DNA of 64,000 nucleotides from Paracoccus sp. MA. Lineage in GTDB: Bacteria; Pseudomonadota; Alphaproteobacteria; Rhodobacterales; Rhodobacteraceae. The notes under the pieces were generated by a model that was not told where the DNA came from, searched no databases, and was given only the letters and a program-made list of their open reading frames with translations. The translations under genes and the position numbers were made by a program. How positions within the stretch are numbered: position 1 is the first letter of the stretch; each line of letters begins with the position of its first letter. Below are positions 9,349-62,678 of the stretch, in pieces. The stretch spans positions 1,263,001-1,327,000 of the forward strand of contig NZ_CP087597.1 of the NCBI RefSeq assembly GCF_020990385.1. Direction: 5' to 3'.

Positions 9349-9362
9349 GCCTTTCCGCATCT

Positions 9363-9441
9363 TCTCTGTTTTCCAAATACCCCGGGGGAATGCCGGGCCG
9401 GCCCCGTCGAGGGGTCGGCCCGGCGTGGGGGCAGAGCCCCC
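9363..9441 (+). repeat. Palindromic spacer element, copy A
   Basis: Layout: pyrimidine-rich start, TTTTCCAAATAC (9369-9380), CCCGGGGGA, a 14-bp stem (9392-9405 with 9411-9424, one G-T pair) around GTCGA, then GGGGGCAGAGCCCCC (9427-9441). The same order recurs at 55691-55753 and, inverted and shortened, inside the MOSC gene near 54340-54390. It lies between the Sir2 gene and phnM, both on the plus strand, and could act as a transcription terminator or mRNA stabiliser. Confidence 0.7.
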
Positions 9442-54100: not shown

Positions 54101-54853
54101 ATGGCCCAGATCATCCTGCTGACGGGCAAGGCCGCCCCCCTGCCCGGCAGCGACCAGCTCAGCGGCATCGACAAGCGCCCGGCGGACCGGCCGCTGGCGC
54201 TTGGCCCCGAGGGATTCGAGGGCGACGAACAGGCCGACCGCCGCGTGCATGGCGGGCCGGAAAAGGCCGTGCATCACTATCCGTTCGATCATTATGCAGC
54301 CTGGCGCGTGGAGCTTGGACGGCCGCGCCTGGCCGAAACACCGGGGGTTTCACACCCCCGGCCCCCCGTGGAGTATTTGAAAAACGGAGAAATCGGGGGA
54401 TTGCTGGAGGCGCCCGGCGCTTTTGGCGAAAACATCTCCACCAGGGGGCTGATCGAGGCGGATGTCGCGGTGGGCGACATCTTCCGGCTCGGCTCGGCCT
54501 TGGTGCAGGTCTCGCAGGGGCGCCAGCCCTGCTGGAAGCTGAACCGCCGCTTCGGCGTCGAGGACATGGCGCGGCGCGTGCAGCAAAGCGGCCGCACCGG
54601 CTGGTATTACCGCGTCCTGCAGCCCGGCATCGTCGCCCCCGGCGACCGGCTGGAGCGGATCGACCGCGTGGCGCCCGACTGGACATTGCGCCGGCTCTGG
54701 CATGCGCTCTACGTGGACCGGCTGAACCTGGACGAGCTGCAGGGCATCGCCGCGCTGGAGGTGCTGGCCGAGGGCTGGCGGCGCTATGCCGTGCGCCGGC
54801 TGGAAAGCGGCCGGGTCGAGGACTGGTCCAGGCGACTGGAGGGCAGCGCATGA
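54101..54853 (+). CDS. MOSC-domain protein (YiiM-like) with in-frame palindromic insert
   Basis: A 250-residue MOSC protein with the C-terminal 3-alpha domain, as in YiiM, an enzyme reducing N-hydroxylated bases with a Mo cofactor. DEQADRRVHGGPEKAVHHYPFDHYAAWR and GRQPCWKLNRRFG (conserved Mo-ligand type Cys) are intact. Between the conserved EL-GRP region and PGAFGENISTRGL lies an unusual stretch (about residues 73-105) encoded by a copy of the palindromic spacer element seen at 9363 and 55691. The reading frame is kept. The gene is divergent from nasT and overlaps pdxY by 4 bp. Confidence 0.88.
   Translation: MAQIILLTGKAAPLPGSDQLSGIDKRPADRPLALGPEGFEGDEQADRRVHGGPEKAVHHYPFDHYAAWRVELGRPRLAETPGVSHPRPPVEYLKNGEIGGLLEAPGAFGENISTRGLIEADVAVGDIFRLGSALVQVSQGRQPCWKLNRRFGVEDMARRVQQSGRTGWYYRVLQPGIVAPGDRLERIDRVAPDWTLRRLWHALYVDRLNLDELQGIAALEVLAEGWRRYAVRRLESGRVEDWSRRLEGSA
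54338..54387 (-). repeat. Palindromic spacer element, copy C, inside a CDS
   Basis: Read on the minus strand: TTTTTCAAATACTCC (54370-54384), then GGGGGG, then a perfect 8-bp stem CCGGGGGT/ACCCCCGG (54341-54348 with 54354-54361) around TTCAC. This matches the order AAATAC - CCC/GGGGG - G5...C5 hairpin of copies A and B. It is translated in frame as part of the MOSC protein. Confidence 0.7.
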
Positions 54854-55686
54854 GCCGGCCGCTGGTGATCTCGATCCAGAGCCAGGTGGTCATGGGCCAT
54901 GTCGGCAATTCCGCCGCGGTCTTTCCGATGCTGGCCGCGGGGCTGGAGGTGGCGCCCGTCCCGACGGTGATCTTCTCCAACACCCCGGATTATCCCAGCC
55001 TGCGCGGCCGGCCGCTGCCCGGCGATTTCTTTGCCGATCTCCTGCAGGGCCTCTGGGATCGCGGCCTGCCCGGGCGCGCGGATGTCCTGCTGACCGGCTA
55101 TATCGGCTCGGTCGAGGTGGCGCAGCTGACGGCCGATTTCGTCGCCCGGGCCAAGGCCGCGAACCCGCGCCTGCGCTATTACTGCGACCCGGTGCTGGGC
55201 GACGAGCAGCCGGGCCTCTATGTGCCCCGGGAAATCGCCGACACCTTCCGCGACCGGCTGCTGCCCATGGCCGACATCGCCTCGCCCAACCCGTTCGAGG
55301 TCGCCTGGCTGACCGGCCAACCCATCGCCGAGCTGGCCGATATCCACCGTGCCGCGCGAGGGCTGCGCATGGCGCCCGAGGCCCAGCTGATCGTGACCGG
55401 CTGCCGGCTGCGCGAAACCGCGCCCGGCATGCTGGAAAGCGTGATCCTGGGACCGCAAGGGCTGACGCGCCATCCAACCCCGCATCTGCCGGTGGCGCTG
55501 GCCGGGACCGGAGACCTGTTCGCCGGGCTGATCACCGCTGCGCTGGGGCAAGGCCGCAGCCTGGCCCAGGCGGTCGAATTCGCACAGATCCAGACCGCGC
55601 GCGCGCTCCGCCAGGCGGCAGAACTCGGCACGAAAGAGGTCGTGCTGTCCGATCCGGCGTTTCGCGCCGCTCTGCTCACCCCCTGA
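54850..55686 (+). CDS. pdxY: Pyridoxal kinase
   Basis: A 278-residue ribokinase-fold enzyme phosphorylating pyridoxal for the B6 salvage pathway. ISIQSQVVMGHVGNSAAVFPMLAAGLEV is the family start (PdxK/PdxY), NTPDYPSLRG the substrate loop, YYCDPVLGDEQPGLYVP the middle motif, and LAGTGDLFAGLITAAL the anion-hole/catalytic Asp motif. The start overlaps the MOSC stop (ATGA). It converges on tex with a palindromic element between. Confidence 0.95.
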   Translation: MSRPLVISIQSQVVMGHVGNSAAVFPMLAAGLEVAPVPTVIFSNTPDYPSLRGRPLPGDFFADLLQGLWDRGLPGRADVLLTGYIGSVEVAQLTADFVARAKAANPRLRYYCDPVLGDEQPGLYVPREIADTFRDRLLPMADIASPNPFEVAWLTGQPIAELADIHRAARGLRMAPEAQLIVTGCRLRETAPGMLESVILGPQGLTRHPTPHLPVALAGTGDLFAGLITAALGQGRSLAQAVEFAQIQTARALRQAAELGTKEVVLSDPAFRAALLTP

Positions 55687-55690
55687 TCGG

Positions 55691-55753
55691 CTTCTTTCTT
55701 GTCCAAATATCCCGGGGGAGTCGCGCCGCAGGCGCGGCGGGGGCAGAGCCCCC
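55691..55753 (+). repeat. Palindromic spacer element, copy B
   Basis: GTCCAAATAT (55701-55710), CCCGGGGGA, stem CGCGCC/GGCGCG (55722-55727 with 55731-55736), then GGGGGCAGAGCCCCC (55739-55753), whose last base is the first base of the tex stop codon on the other strand. It fills the whole spacer between convergent pdxY and tex, so it may serve as a two-way terminator. Confidence 0.7.
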
Positions 55754-58065
55754 TAATCCTTGCGCAGCGCGTTCAGCAGCGCCGCGCCCAGGGCGCCGGG
55801 CTGCTCCTTGCCCGCAGGGGCGGCGGATTTCGGGCCGCGTCCCGGCTGCGCCTTGGGTCCGCGCTCCTTCTGCGCCTCGCGGGCGGCGGCACCGCCGTCC
55901 TTGCGCATAGTCAAGCCGATGCGCTTCCTGGCCACATCCACCTCGGTCACCCGCACCCTGACCACGTCGCCGACCTTCACCACCTCGTTCGGGTCCTTGA
56001 CGAAACGGTCGGCCAGCTGGCTGATATGCACCAGCCCGTCCTGATGCACGCCGATATCGACGAAGGCGCCGAAGGCCGCGACATTCGTCACCGTGCCTTC
56101 CAGCGCCATGCCGGGGCGCAGATCCTTGATATCCTCGACCCCCTCGGCAAAGCTGGCGGTAACGAAGCTCGGGCGCGGGTCGCGGCCGGGCTTTTCCAGC
56201 TCGGAGAGGATGTCGCGGATGGTCGGCAGGCCGAAATGCGCGTCGACGAAGGCCTCCGCCCGGATGCCCTTCAGCGCCGCGCCATTGCCCATGATCTGGC
56301 GGATGTCGCGGCCGCAGGCGGCGACGATGCGGCGGGCGACGCCGTAAGCCTCGGGATGGACGGCCGAGGCGTCCAGCGGCTCCTTGCCGTCGCGGATGCG
56401 CAGGAAGCCCGCGCATTGCTCGAAGGCGCGCGGGCCAAGCCCGCCGACCTTCTTTAGCGCCGCCCGGGACGGGAAGGCGCCGTTCTCGTCGCGCCAGGCC
56501 ACGATGTTCTGCGCCAGCGACGGTCCCAGCCCGGCCACATGCGCAAGCAGGGGCGCCGAAGCGGTGTTCAGGTCCACCCCCACCGCGTTCACTGCATCCT
56601 CGACCACCGCCTCCAGCGTCTTGGCCAGCTGCCGCTGGTCCACGTCATGCTGATACTGGCCGACGCCGATCGATTCGGGCGGCACCTTGACCAGTTCCGC
56701 CAGCGGGTCCTGCAGGCGCCGGGCGATCGAGACCGCGCCGCGCAAGGACACGTCGAGCCCCGGGAACTCCTTCGCCGCCAGCTCCGAGGCGGAATAGACC
56801 GAGGCCCCGGCCTCGGAGACGATCACCTTCACCGGCGGCTTCACGCCTTCGGGCAGGCGCTTGAGCACCTCGGCCACGAAACGCTCGGTCTCGCGGCTGG
56901 CGGTGCCGTTACCGATGGCGATCAGCTCGATCCTGTGCTTGACGATGGCGGCGGCCAGCGCGGCCTCTGCCCCGCGCAGGTCGGATTTCGGCGGGAACGG
57001 GTAAAGCGTCGCGGTCTCGACCAGCTTGCCCGTGCCGTCCACCGCCGCCAGCTTGACTCCGGTGCGGATGCCGGGGTCCAGGCCGATGGTCGGGCGCGGC
57101 CCGGCGGGCGAGGCCAGCAGCAGGTCGCGCAGGTTGCGGGCGAAAACCCGGATCGCCTCTGCATGGGCGCGGGTGCGCAGCTCGGTCAGCAGGTCGATAT
57201 ACATCGTGTTCGACAGCCGCACCCGCCAGCACCAGCCCGCCACCTTGCGCAGCCAGCGGTCGCCCGGCTGATCGCCCAGCCGGTCCAGGGCCGAGGCGAC
57301 GATGCCCTCGGCCCGCGCCGCGCCGGTTTCCGGCTCGGGCGCGATCTCGATGGTCAGCACCTCCTCCTTGGCGCCGCGCAGGATCGCCAGCGCCCGATGC
57401 GCCGGGATGCTCGCCCATTTTTCGGACTGGTCGAAATAGTCGCTGAACTTGGCGCCGACCTGTTCCTTGCCCGGCACCACCCTGGCCGAGATAATCGCCT
57501 CGGCCTGCATGAATTCGCGCAGCCGGCCCAGCAGCGCCGCATTCTCGGACAGCTCCTCGACCAGGATGTCGCGCGCGCCGTCCAGCGCCGATTTCACATC
57601 CGGCACCGATTCCGAGATATAGCCCGCCGCCAGCGCCTCGGGCTCGGCGGCGCGGTTGTCCTGGATGGCGCGCAGCAGCGGCTCCAGCCCGTTTTCCCGC
57701 GCGATCATCGCCTTGGTGCGGCGCTTGGGCTTGAAGGGCAGGTAGATGTCTTCCAGCGTGGCCTTGGTTTCCGCCCCGGCGATGGCGCGGGCCAGCGCGT
57801 CGGTCAGCTTGCCCTGCCCCTTGATGGATTCGAGGATCGAGGCCCGCCGCGCCTCGAGTTCGCGCAGATAGGCCAGCCGTTCGGACAGCGTGCGCAGCTG
57901 CGTGTCGTCCAGCCCGCCCGTCACCTCCTTGCGATAGCGGGCGACGAAGGGCACCGTGGCGCCCCCGTCCAGCAGGGCCGAGGCCGCCGCCACCTGGTCG
58001 GGGCGGGCAGCGATCTCGGCGGCGATGGTGCGGGCTATGCGGTCGGTTGCATCCACGGGCGGCAT
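55753..58065 (-). CDS. tex: Tex-family RNA-binding transcription accessory protein
   Basis: A 770-residue Tex protein. Order: N-terminal helical Tex domain (FVARYRKEVTGGLDDTQLR, EDIYLPFKPKRRTKA), YqgF/RNase H-like domain (IGLDPGIRTGVKLAAVD), helix-hairpin-helix (LNTASAPLLAHVAGLGPSLAQNIVAWRDENG), and a C-terminal S1 domain (GTVTNVAAFGAFVDIGVHQDGLVHISQLADRFV) followed by a basic tail. It binds nucleic acids and affects transcription and stress tolerance. Normal length. The stop abuts palindromic element B. Confidence 0.97.
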   Translation of the reverse strand: MPPVDATDRIARTIAAEIAARPDQVAAASALLDGGATVPFVARYRKEVTGGLDDTQLRTLSERLAYLRELEARRASILESIKGQGKLTDALARAIAGAETKATLEDIYLPFKPKRRTKAMIARENGLEPLLRAIQDNRAAEPEALAAGYISESVPDVKSALDGARDILVEELSENAALLGRLREFMQAEAIISARVVPGKEQVGAKFSDYFDQSEKWASIPAHRALAILRGAKEEVLTIEIAPEPETGAARAEGIVASALDRLGDQPGDRWLRKVAGWCWRVRLSNTMYIDLLTELRTRAHAEAIRVFARNLRDLLLASPAGPRPTIGLDPGIRTGVKLAAVDGTGKLVETATLYPFPPKSDLRGAEAALAAAIVKHRIELIAIGNGTASRETERFVAEVLKRLPEGVKPPVKVIVSEAGASVYSASELAAKEFPGLDVSLRGAVSIARRLQDPLAELVKVPPESIGVGQYQHDVDQRQLAKTLEAVVEDAVNAVGVDLNTASAPLLAHVAGLGPSLAQNIVAWRDENGAFPSRAALKKVGGLGPRAFEQCAGFLRIRDGKEPLDASAVHPEAYGVARRIVAACGRDIRQIMGNGAALKGIRAEAFVDAHFGLPTIRDILSELEKPGRDPRPSFVTASFAEGVEDIKDLRPGMALEGTVTNVAAFGAFVDIGVHQDGLVHISQLADRFVKDPNEVVKVGDVVRVRVTEVDVARKRIGLTMRKDGGAAAREAQKERGPKAQPGRGPKSAAPAGKEQPGALGAALLNALRKD

Positions 58066-59992: not shown

Positions 59993-60219
59993 TCAGGCGG
60001 CTTTTTTCGCCTCGCCTAGCTGGATGATCTCTGACAAATGTTCACCCGTCAGCGTTTTACGATTGTGCAACACGCGCGCGACTTCGCAGACCTCATGCCA
60101 GCAGTCATCTAGCATCTTGCCAAGACGGCGTTCGGCATCATTCAGAATCTTTTTACGGAAGGGCTTGCGCTTCTCAAGAAAGCCGACCAACCCCATAACC
60201 TGCCCATAATCGTTCCTAG
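59993..60219 (-). pseudogene. Phage gene fragment cut by IS copy 1
   Basis: The open frame continues right to the IS end at about 60219; beyond that only IS sequence is read (MSTRP from the IS terminus with a TTG start). The remaining 74 residues are hydrophilic and helical: NDYGQVMGLVGFLEKRKPFRKK, then LDDCWHEVCEVARVLHNRKTLTGEHLSEIIQ. The last part faintly resembles the C-terminal end of FtsH-type (M41) peptidases, too weak to name. The original N-terminus is missing, displaced by the IS. Confidence 0.5.
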
Positions 60220-60285
60220 GTCGTGTTGACAAAAGGGATTCCTCTGGCAGTCGTCCTATGATTCAAGCTCATCTCTACGTGGGAG

Positions 60286-60711
60286 ATGAACTTGGCACGC
60301 AACCTGATATCCGACGATGAGTGGACCTTCTTCGAGGGCTTCATTCGTGCCGTCCGGCACCCTAACGGGCGGAAACCTGCGGACCATCGTCTTGTTCTGA
60401 ATGGTATATTCTGGATCGCAAGGACTGGTGCGCCATGGCGCGATCTGCCCGAAGAGTTTGGCAAGTGGTCCTCGGTCTACCGTCAGTTCCGCCGCTGGAC
60501 TTTGGCGGGACTGTGGGAGGATATCCTGGATGCGCTGAACCACGCTGGGATCGCGCCAGACAAGCTCCAGATGGTTGATAGCACTGTGATCCGCGCCCAT
60601 CATCATGCGGCGGGCGCAAAAGGGGGACTCCGAAAGAGGCTCTTGGCCGTTCGAGAGGTGGCTTCTCGACCAAGATCCATCTCCGCGTCAACGGCGCAGG
60701 CCTCCCGATGA
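60286..60711 (+). CDS. IS5-family transposase, first frame (orfA)
   Basis: 141 codons. The N-terminal DUF4096-like domain (NLISDDEWTFFEGFIRAVRHPNGRKP, WIARTGAPWRDLPEEFGKWSSVYRQFRRW) is followed by MVDSTVIRAHHHAAGAKGG with the first catalytic Asp. The full enzyme needs a shift to the -1 frame at A4G5 (60618-60626), after which the second frame reads the rest of the DDE domain. Read to the end of its own frame, it gives a truncated product with a random tail. ATG follows GGGAG. Confidence 0.9.
   Translation: MNLARNLISDDEWTFFEGFIRAVRHPNGRKPADHRLVLNGIFWIARTGAPWRDLPEEFGKWSSVYRQFRRWTLAGLWEDILDALNHAGIAPDKLQMVDSTVIRAHHHAAGAKGGLRKRLLAVREVASRPRSISASTAQASR
60618..60626 (+). other. Likely programmed -1 frameshift site
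   Basis: AAAAGGGGG. In the orfA frame it reads GCA AAA GGG GGA; a -1 slip places the ribosome in the frame reading ACT CCG AAA GAG, which continues the transposase without a gap. The same tract is at 62585-62593 in copy 2. Confidence 0.7.
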
Positions 60712-62038: not shown

Positions 62039-62186
62039 CTCGGGCGCTTGCTACCAGCCGGCACAGTTAGCGCATCCTCAATAGGCCAACCATGTATTAA
62101 CCGATAATAAATAGTGTTTCGTTTAATCCCGGTTCTGCTTTCCCATTGGTTTAGGGTGAGGGTTTCGCCGCGATAGGTGAAGCTAG
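62008..62186 (-). pseudogene. Phage/mobile helix-turn-helix gene fragment cut by IS copy 2
   Basis: The frame runs from the IS end to a stop at 62008, about 58 non-IS residues. YRGETLTLNQWESRTGIKRNTIYYRLIHGWPIEDALT is the pattern of small DNA-binding modules found next to homing or HNH endonucleases and in phage proteins (xGETLTLxEWSxRTGIxxxTIxxRLxxGW). The N-terminus is lost to the IS; the IS end supplies an artificial MSTRP with a TTG start. Its last 31 bp overlap the 3' end of the membrane coiled-coil gene on the other strand. Confidence 0.65.
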
Positions 62187-62252
62187 GTCGTGTTGACAAA
62201 AGGGATTCCTCTGGCAGTCGTCCTATGATTCAAGCTCATCTCTACGTGGGAG

Positions 62253-62678
62253 ATGAACTTGGCACGCAACCTGATATCCGACGATGAGTGGACCTTCTTC
62301 GAGGGCTTCATTCGTGCCGTCCGGCACCCTAACGGGCGGAAACCTGCGGACCATCGTCTTGTTCTGAATGGTATATTCTGGATCGCAAGGACTGGTGCGC
62401 CATGGCGCGATCTGCCCGAAGAGTTTGGCAAGTGGTCCTCGGTCTACCGTCAGTTCCGCCGCTGGACTTTGGCGGGACTGTGGGAGGATATCCTGGATGC
62501 GCTGAACCACGCTGGGATCGCGCCAGACAAGCTCCAGATGGTTGATAGCACTGTGATCCGCGCCCATCATCATGCGGCGGGCGCAAAAGGGGGACTCCGA
62601 AAGAGGCTCTTGGCCGTTCGAGAGGTGGCTTCTCGACCAAGATCCATCTCCGCGTCAACGGCGCAGGCCTCCCGATGA
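62253..62678 (+). CDS. IS5-family transposase, first frame (copy 2)
   Basis: Translation identical to the orfA of copy 1 (141 codons, with the first catalytic Asp in MVDSTVIRAHHH). It ends by a frame change after the A4G5 tract at 62585-62593. Confidence 0.9.
   Translation: MNLARNLISDDEWTFFEGFIRAVRHPNGRKPADHRLVLNGIFWIARTGAPWRDLPEEFGKWSSVYRQFRRWTLAGLWEDILDALNHAGIAPDKLQMVDSTVIRAHHHAAGAKGGLRKRLLAVREVASRPRSISASTAQASR

Follow-up and report, generated by a model that had tools for sequence, protein, structure and literature searches.

We found that a short palindromic repeat, dispersed in many copies through the genome of Paracoccus sp. MA, lies in frame within a MOSC protein gene and that copies of this repeat inside genes keep the repeat spelling of their own genome, most clearly in the MOSC gene and in an ABC transporter ATPase gene. 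The last feature was unexpected. The Paracoccus element is real, recurrent and in frame and is a known kind of repeat in a new group of bacteria. We consider it probable that this dispersed in-frame element, which in the MOSC gene most simply reflects one old event, is a functional 3'-end signal read by a factor whose preference drifts between lineages. The window that we analyzed is a stretch of 64,000 nucleotides, and positions are given in its numbering.

The MOSC gene (54101 to 54853, forward strand) is an open reading frame of 250 codons with an insert, and its product belongs to the YiiM/MOSC group, as the MOSC domain (Pfam, 1.2e-36), the YiiM 3-alpha domain (YiiM_3-alpha, 1.6e-14) and the YiiM fold are all present. 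The PDB YiiM entries 5yhi and 1o65 match the protein by sequence and by fold. The score against the NCBIfam equivalog PRK11536 was 168, below the cut-off of 294. The initial annotation had placed a palindromic spacer element in frame within this gene, and we confirmed that this observation is real. The insert is 51 nucleotides long (54341 to 54391) and fills exactly codons 81 to 97, since the start codon at 54101 places its first base at codon 81. It reads CCGGGGGTTTCACACCCCCGG-CCCCCCGTGG in the body and then AGTATTTGAAAAACGGAGAA in the tail. The body (54341 to 54371, forward strand) is of the kind that we call type II, a GGGGG-loop-CCCCC hairpin followed by CCCCCGTGG; this hairpin is predicted, with a z score (-1.17) that was not significant against shuffled sequences. 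The tail (54372 to 54391, forward strand) has the form (A)GTATTT-GAA-AAACGGAGAA, ends with residue 97 and matches the tail pattern found throughout the genome. In length, the protein equals the common 226-residue form plus 24 residues. An AlphaFold2 model with a mean pLDDT of 83.5 gave values below 50 for residues 79 to 94. This predicts a disordered loop for the insert, which the protein would most likely tolerate.

The initial annotation also suggested that LAETPG before the insert and LLEAPG after it look like a copied junction. We found otherwise: the PG is part of the element itself (CCGGGG), other insert-bearing orthologues do not keep LAET, and by eye the left flank in genomes G086, G046 and G014 ends where the uninserted segment would continue. 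Inspection by eye likewise revealed no target-site duplication at the MOSC site.

We then found 115 matches to the tail pattern in the Paracoccus sp. MA genome (4.47 Mb in three contigs) and none to a reversed control, which is the enrichment expected of a dispersed core motif. In having many copies with hairpin bodies, this palindromic repeat resembles the Rickettsia palindromic elements as a kind. With up to three mismatches, the pattern occurred at three places in the window versus 0.00 in shuffled sequences. These are the MOSC copy and two intergenic copies that the initial annotation had put at 9363 to 9441 and 55691 to 55753 and had equated with it. The equation stands for the tail, which all three have in common, and fails for the hairpin bodies. 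Both intergenic copies, on the reverse strand at 9361 to 9441 and at 55691 to 55753, carry a type I body, which consists of GGGGGCTCTGCCCCC, a variable hairpin and then CCCCCGGG; the variable hairpin is longer in the first copy, and the second copy lies between the convergent stop codons of a pdxY-like gene and tex. RNA folding of four copies was not significant against shuffled sequences (z, -0.16 to -1.67).

Beyond this genome, a search for the 31 bases of the type II body, with as many as three mismatches allowed, found them in 85 of 125 genus genomes, with no control matches, and the shorter motif CCCCCGNGGRRTATTT was found in 55 of 159 family genomes from 54 genera, with one control match. 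This showed that the element family is spread through Paracoccus and that roughly one in three of the family genomes sampled contains its core motif. A plasmid collection contained 23 records with a match, 20 of them from Paracoccus. The best place in each record overlapped no listed gene, except for one that touches a gene's first base, with gene tables that are incomplete and one of the 23 records lacking annotation. Rfam 15 gave no match in the window, and for three element loci it gave a single weak match, below the gathering score (E of 0.53, 22.6 bits versus 80). The REP-associated tyrosine transposase domain Y1_Tnp (PF01797) was not found in the Paracoccus sp. MA genome by a search that recovered the domain from 5 of 14 control genomes.

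We read the flanks of 102 of the 115 copies, using a simple codon-based script as the gene caller. Forty-four copies lay between convergent genes, 43 between co-directional genes (28 in one orientation versus 15 in the other) and 3 between divergent genes; 8 had a gene on one side and 4 were in genes. Among the 98 outside genes, 93 adjoin at least one 3' end. Of the 90 type II copies read across the genus, 26 were convergent, 24 and 26 co-directional by orientation, 7 divergent and 6 one-sided, and the remaining copy was within the MOSC gene of G039. Stop codons on the body side lay at a median distance of 11 to 11.5 nucleotides, and those on the tail side at 5.5 nucleotides for type II copies and 59 nucleotides for the Paracoccus sp. 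MA set. These data showed that the usual place of the element is close behind stop codons, in either orientation. A strictly strand-specific 3'-UTR element is ruled out by the co-directional type II copies (24 versus 26), and the lean in our genome (28 versus 15) does not exclude the other orientation. On the assumption that 85% of the genome is coding, chance would place far more than 4 of 102 copies in genes (4e-75), and the rarity of copies in genes fits strong purging with survival of the in-frame cases.

Two intergenic sites were compared between genomes. Between pdxY and tex, the element was present in 6 of the 16 genomes in which both stop codons were located, our genome included, and the two genes overlap in 5 of the 10 element-free genomes. 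At the intergenic site of locus L009, all 13 genomes (12 searched and our own) carried element sequence, and its type differed between them; in G014, the site is occupied by an inverted pair belonging to other types.

The MOSC gene might have been the sole gene with a copy. We ruled this out, as a better gene caller added three more in-frame copies in conserved genes of the same genome (loci L064, L069 and L087). By comparison with orthologues, we showed in-frame copies in at least four conserved genes. The first is an ABC transporter ATPase gene (L064), in which a type I element on the other strand encodes SFLSKYPGG...RRGAEPP, adds about 90 nucleotides and is missing from many homologues of about 233 residues. 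We examined 24 loci of this gene and excluded three that the regular expressions missed (G044, G059 and G086); in the 21 readable genomes, the KYPGG insert was seen in 10, a diverged insert in 3, remnants in 2 and no insert in 6. As a separate observation, the ABC ATPase gene of G059 (G059:C4:2155580-2156364) matches in two reading frames that overlap across the element, which suggests a frame shift in the insert region of that genome. The second is a ligase-associated helicase gene (L087), for which TIGR04121 scored 627 bits on a partial protein versus a cut-off of 850; its DGYL-type insert was present in 8 of 30 loci and absent from 22. The third encodes a CobG-like protein (L069; TIGR02435, 221 bits versus a cut-off of 235) with a KYPCD insert in 4 of the 26 loci read, after exclusion of the 4 of 30 that the regular expressions missed (G039, G014, G098 and G060).

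Two coarser searches returned fewer genes. A 240-nucleotide codon test flagged only the MOSC gene, L048 and L069, and L048 precedes a gene start. A peptide search returned six MOSC proteins only among 171 candidates; because it is blind to peptides off the consensus and was restricted by length and word settings, its result does not show that other genes lack copies. Insert-free orthologues exist for the MOSC, ABC ATPase, CobG-like and helicase genes, and this pattern in four genes is that of the Rickettsia palindromic elements. The initial annotation had drawn this parallel from the MOSC copy, and it is now supported and stronger because the same genome holds three more in-frame copies in unrelated conserved genes.

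We compared codons at identical residues between insert bodies and their flanks; for MOSC, this covered 12 orthologues and ten body codons. In the MOSC body, 11 of 611 comparisons gave different codons (1.8%) versus 3,394 of 11,561 in the flanks (29%), and none of 193 flank windows was as low as the body. The freezing was weaker in the helicase gene (9 of 170, or 5.3%, versus 2,141 of 8,568, or 25%; 10 of 334 windows as low) and weaker still in the ABC gene (56 of 289, or 19%, versus 2,246 of 7,208, or 31%; 11 of 184 windows as low). The CobG-like gene gave no signal in this test (6 of 39, or 15%, versus 252 of 1,234, or 20%; 102 of 257 windows as low).

The tail carries a genome-specific spelling after its 3-nucleotide spacer. 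Among the copies examined, those outside the MOSC gene read CATGAAAGAA in G086 and G046, and four of five such copies in G014 read CAAGAAAGAA. An exact match between the MOSC tail and another copy in the same genome was found in 9 of 12 genomes, and a match with at most one mismatch in 11 of 12; the mismatches summed to 4 versus about 22 when genomes were permuted. For the ABC tail, 7 of 8 testable genomes had an exact match (1 mismatch versus 6.6 permuted), and for the tail at the orthologous intergenic site 8 of 11 did (4 mismatches versus 16.2). These tests cover the genomes with a tail list, that is, 8 of 13 readable ABC tails and, for the intergenic site, 11 of 13, and the permutations ignore the relatedness of genomes, so the fractions are not clean probabilities. 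When the base before TATTT was tabulated with the first base after the spacer (68 rows from 12 genomes), we counted A with C 31 times, G with A 26 times, G with G 8 times, G with C 3 times and A with A or G not once. The association of these two bases marks two tail classes.

The hairpin of the ABC copy was also kept. In its type I structure of two helices, with a 15-bp stem, 96.5% of cells were paired versus 46 to 53% in slid controls, 27 cells were changed on both sides, and covariation was 0.352; for each of these three measures, 0 of 500 shuffles were as high. Two other measures on the same stem were not distinctive: at least as many double-change pairs (6) were seen in 165 of 500 shuffles, and at least as many further pair types (16) in 82 of 500. 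These counts come from 11 of 13 readable sequences, as G043 and G046 are of another length. Our data showed that copies inside genes remain elements at the nucleic acid level, to different degrees.

What could keep the copies alike in this way? A 3'-end role is suggested by their location after stop codons, whichever way they face. The conservation of the body and of the bipartite tail, next to a spacer that varies and stems that differ yet stay paired, has the look of a signal under selection at each site and recognized by a common factor. Such a signal would consist of a GC hairpin and a bipartite tail with a 3-nucleotide spacer and may act by ending or protecting transcripts. A trans-acting factor would read it, and the preference of this factor would drift between lineages. 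Copies in genes and outside them would follow one dialect through this common factor.

The main rival is gene conversion, in which recombination homogenizes the copies and rewrites those in genes from intergenic templates. It would account for the spelling that copies share and for their changes of class, and whole blocks do switch class at orthologous places, both at the intergenic L009 site and between the A and G classes of MOSC tails. The frozen MOSC body and the short 5-bp stems that recur among several copies of our genome fit it as well. However, conversion tracts should even out spacers and stems, and we found 18 different triplets among 65 tail spacers and no two alike among the 14 stems of at least 6 bp in our genome; spacers in our genome were mostly GGA or GGG, under a search pattern that favored them. 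Different stems and varying spacers argue against simple copying between sites. We regard gene conversion as possible, if unlikely.

Alternatively, the insertions could be selfish or neutral, and copies in genes could be relics that have no nucleic acid function and whose stems stay perfect through hairpin-templated mutation. Quasipalindrome correction is a hairpin-templated mutation of this type that keeps stems perfect. The CobG copy, which lacks codon freezing, and the decayed MOSC copies described below are what this explanation predicts. Yet such correction can neither fix a tail that is not palindromic, and the MOSC and ABC tails follow the spelling of their genomes, nor account for the frozen part of the MOSC body outside the hairpin. 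We consider it unlikely that the copies are mere relics.

A 3'-end signal with a drifting factor, which we prefer, has a consequence for proteins that gene conversion would have too. The genome-wide dialect of the repeat may write stretches of conserved proteins, such that a change of spelling, through a trans-acting factor or a homogenizing process, would alter residues in genes. We put this close to even. In the ABC ATPase, for example, Leu, Val or Met is encoded according to whether the other strand reads CAAG, CACG or CATG.

The history of the MOSC copy was followed in orthologues. The segment at the insert site has 55 residues in our protein versus 31 in insert-free orthologues. Among the best 120 of 6,796 homologues, the segment was short in 90, consistent with the initial proposal that orthologues would lack the inserted residues, and longer in 30, of which 20 have a type II peptide, 6 a type I-like peptide and 4 another one. 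The MOSC gene is present in 64 of 125 genus genomes (E of 1e-40). We fetched 30 loci and could read 28, excluding L114 and L120, which the regular expressions missed. Thirteen of the 28 have the 31-residue segment and 15 a longer one; at the DNA level, the latter comprise 12 type II copies, 1 type I-like copy and 2 decayed copies. A further 34 of the 64 genomes are known from protein-level alignments, which start at residues 96 to 106, as expected of insert-free genes. The two decayed cases, G073 and G033, have longer segments in which no type I or type II repeat DNA is recognizable. They group with carriers in a supported clade of the neighbor-gene tree and are best read as decayed copies. 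Some lineages have therefore let the copy decay, so it is not essential.

We noted in passing that G073 (L099) is a close relative of the genome of the window and that its segment is longer, strongly changed and without a recognizable type II body, so decay can be fast. In G014, the MOSC copy (G014:C1:179834-179897) contains two tandem repeats of the element's hairpin part, with the frame kept.

The neighborhood of the gene is stable. A pyridoxal-kinase-like (pdxY-like) gene (54850 to 55686, forward strand), supported by neighbor conservation and a domain match, overlaps the MOSC stop codon and adjoins the MOSC gene in 29 of 30 loci, with or without the insert. A Tex-type gene (55753 to 58065, reverse strand; domain match) follows and was visible in 15 of the 30 short loci fetched. 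In a tree of pdxY and tex, 15 carriers and 5 noncarriers form one supported group, and a single clade of insert carriers was not rejected (p-AU, 0.256). In the MOSC protein tree, the no-insert label takes 5 changes, at least 3 of which are forced by supported branches.

Most simply, the MOSC insert is one old insertion into a tolerant loop that was lost or changed in some lineages. Site-specific targeting could instead have caused independent insertions at the same place, each in the spelling of its lineage. The different element types found there (type II DNA, one type I-like DNA and, at the protein level only, type I-like peptides in six proteins) and the minimum of three label changes in the protein tree speak for repeated insertion. 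Against it, the neighbor-gene tree is compatible with a single origin, most insert-bearing orthologues have by eye a 3-residue right linker in common, and type changes occur at orthologous intergenic sites too. We judge repeated insertion distinctly improbable. Ordinary variation of a MOSC loop, one that does vary in length and is predicted to be disordered, with a chance likeness to the repeat, deserves next to no credence, given that the same 31 bases recur, exactly or nearly so, away from MOSC in many genus genomes and that inserts of this kind occur in three further genes.

The best-known cases of protein-coding palindromic repeats come from Rickettsia and Wolbachia, and small, decaying genomes are their usual setting. 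We now find such palindromes in Paracoccus, whose genomes are mostly 3 to 5 Mb and among which P. denitrificans is a carrier. Strain DSM 413 (G026) of this species has the MOSC insert, and as P. denitrificans is a laboratory organism, the element is accessible to genetic work. Their genome-specific spelling in genes allows one to ask if a nucleic acid signal overrides the protein-level fate of the residues that it encodes. The finding also points to a widespread putative 3'-end element that has no matching Rfam family. We found no description of the element in Paracoccus or its family in the literature searched, a body of work with most subscription journals outside it.

DNA uptake sequences are dispersed motifs, often at gene ends and also inside genes, that have species-specific dialects. 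The Paracoccus element may be likened to them as a dispersed motif near gene ends with genome-specific spelling inside genes; unlike them, it has about 100 copies rather than thousands, is longer and has a hairpin body. CIR elements are tied to the CcrM methylation site GANTC, whereas the type II body contains no GANTC by eye. They resemble our element, in the excerpted text of PMC2229807, as intergenic repeats of Alphaproteobacteria (Caulobacter and Brucella). The same excerpts describe ERIC, YPAL/RU-2 and RU-3 of enterobacteria as small repeats able to fuse in frame, like ours; by that description they belong to another host group, and ERIC and YPAL measure about 127 to 168 bp. REP and BIME sequences, tagged with GTAG and CGTC, are, in the available portion of PMC3733652, extragenic palindromes near gene ends, often paired and with composite types, which is a likeness; in contrast, our Paracoccus genome has no Y1_Tnp (RAYT), and we noticed no GTAG or CGTC tag by eye. 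The text of that paper mentions neither Rhodobacter, Paracoccus, alphaproteobacteria nor Rhodobacterales, and the accessible part of the P. denitrificans sRNA paper (PMC5107571) yielded no description of the element.

The closest parallel is with the Rickettsia palindromic elements. According to the excerpts of PMC2229807 and PMC10969869 that cite Ogata et al. (2000, 2002), these lie in frame within conserved genes. They are about 105 to 150 bp long, and nearly half of the first described copies were in genes; a guanylate kinase that carries one was active when tested, with a changed substrate affinity, and enterobacterial repeats form similar in-frame gene fusions (excerpts of PMC2229807 and PMC10969869). 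As far as these partial accounts go, our element is, like them and like the protein-coding palindromes of Wolbachia, a short palindrome found both between genes and in frame in unrelated conserved genes. It differs in being shorter (51 nucleotides in MOSC and about 90 in the ABC gene) and GC rich, in lying mostly next to stop codons, 4 of the 102 copies read being within genes, and in its genome-specific spelling, in genes too. By description, then, the Paracoccus element may work like the Rickettsia palindromic elements.

Other observations concern MOSC genes elsewhere and the rest of the window. A second MOSC gene occurs in P. denitrificans DSM 413 (G026:C54:137569-138015) and in Paracoccus sp. 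MKU1 (G076:C205:49302-49748), and in both the match begins only with residue 102 of the query, as it does for copies lacking the insert. A contig with the title Enemella evansiae, an actinobacterial name, carries a MOSC gene (L284) 63% identical to the Paracoccus query, possibly by contamination or transfer. Downstream in the window, a 300-nucleotide direct repeat, 100% identical, lies at 60216 to 60515 and 62183 to 62482, 1,967 nucleotides from start to start.
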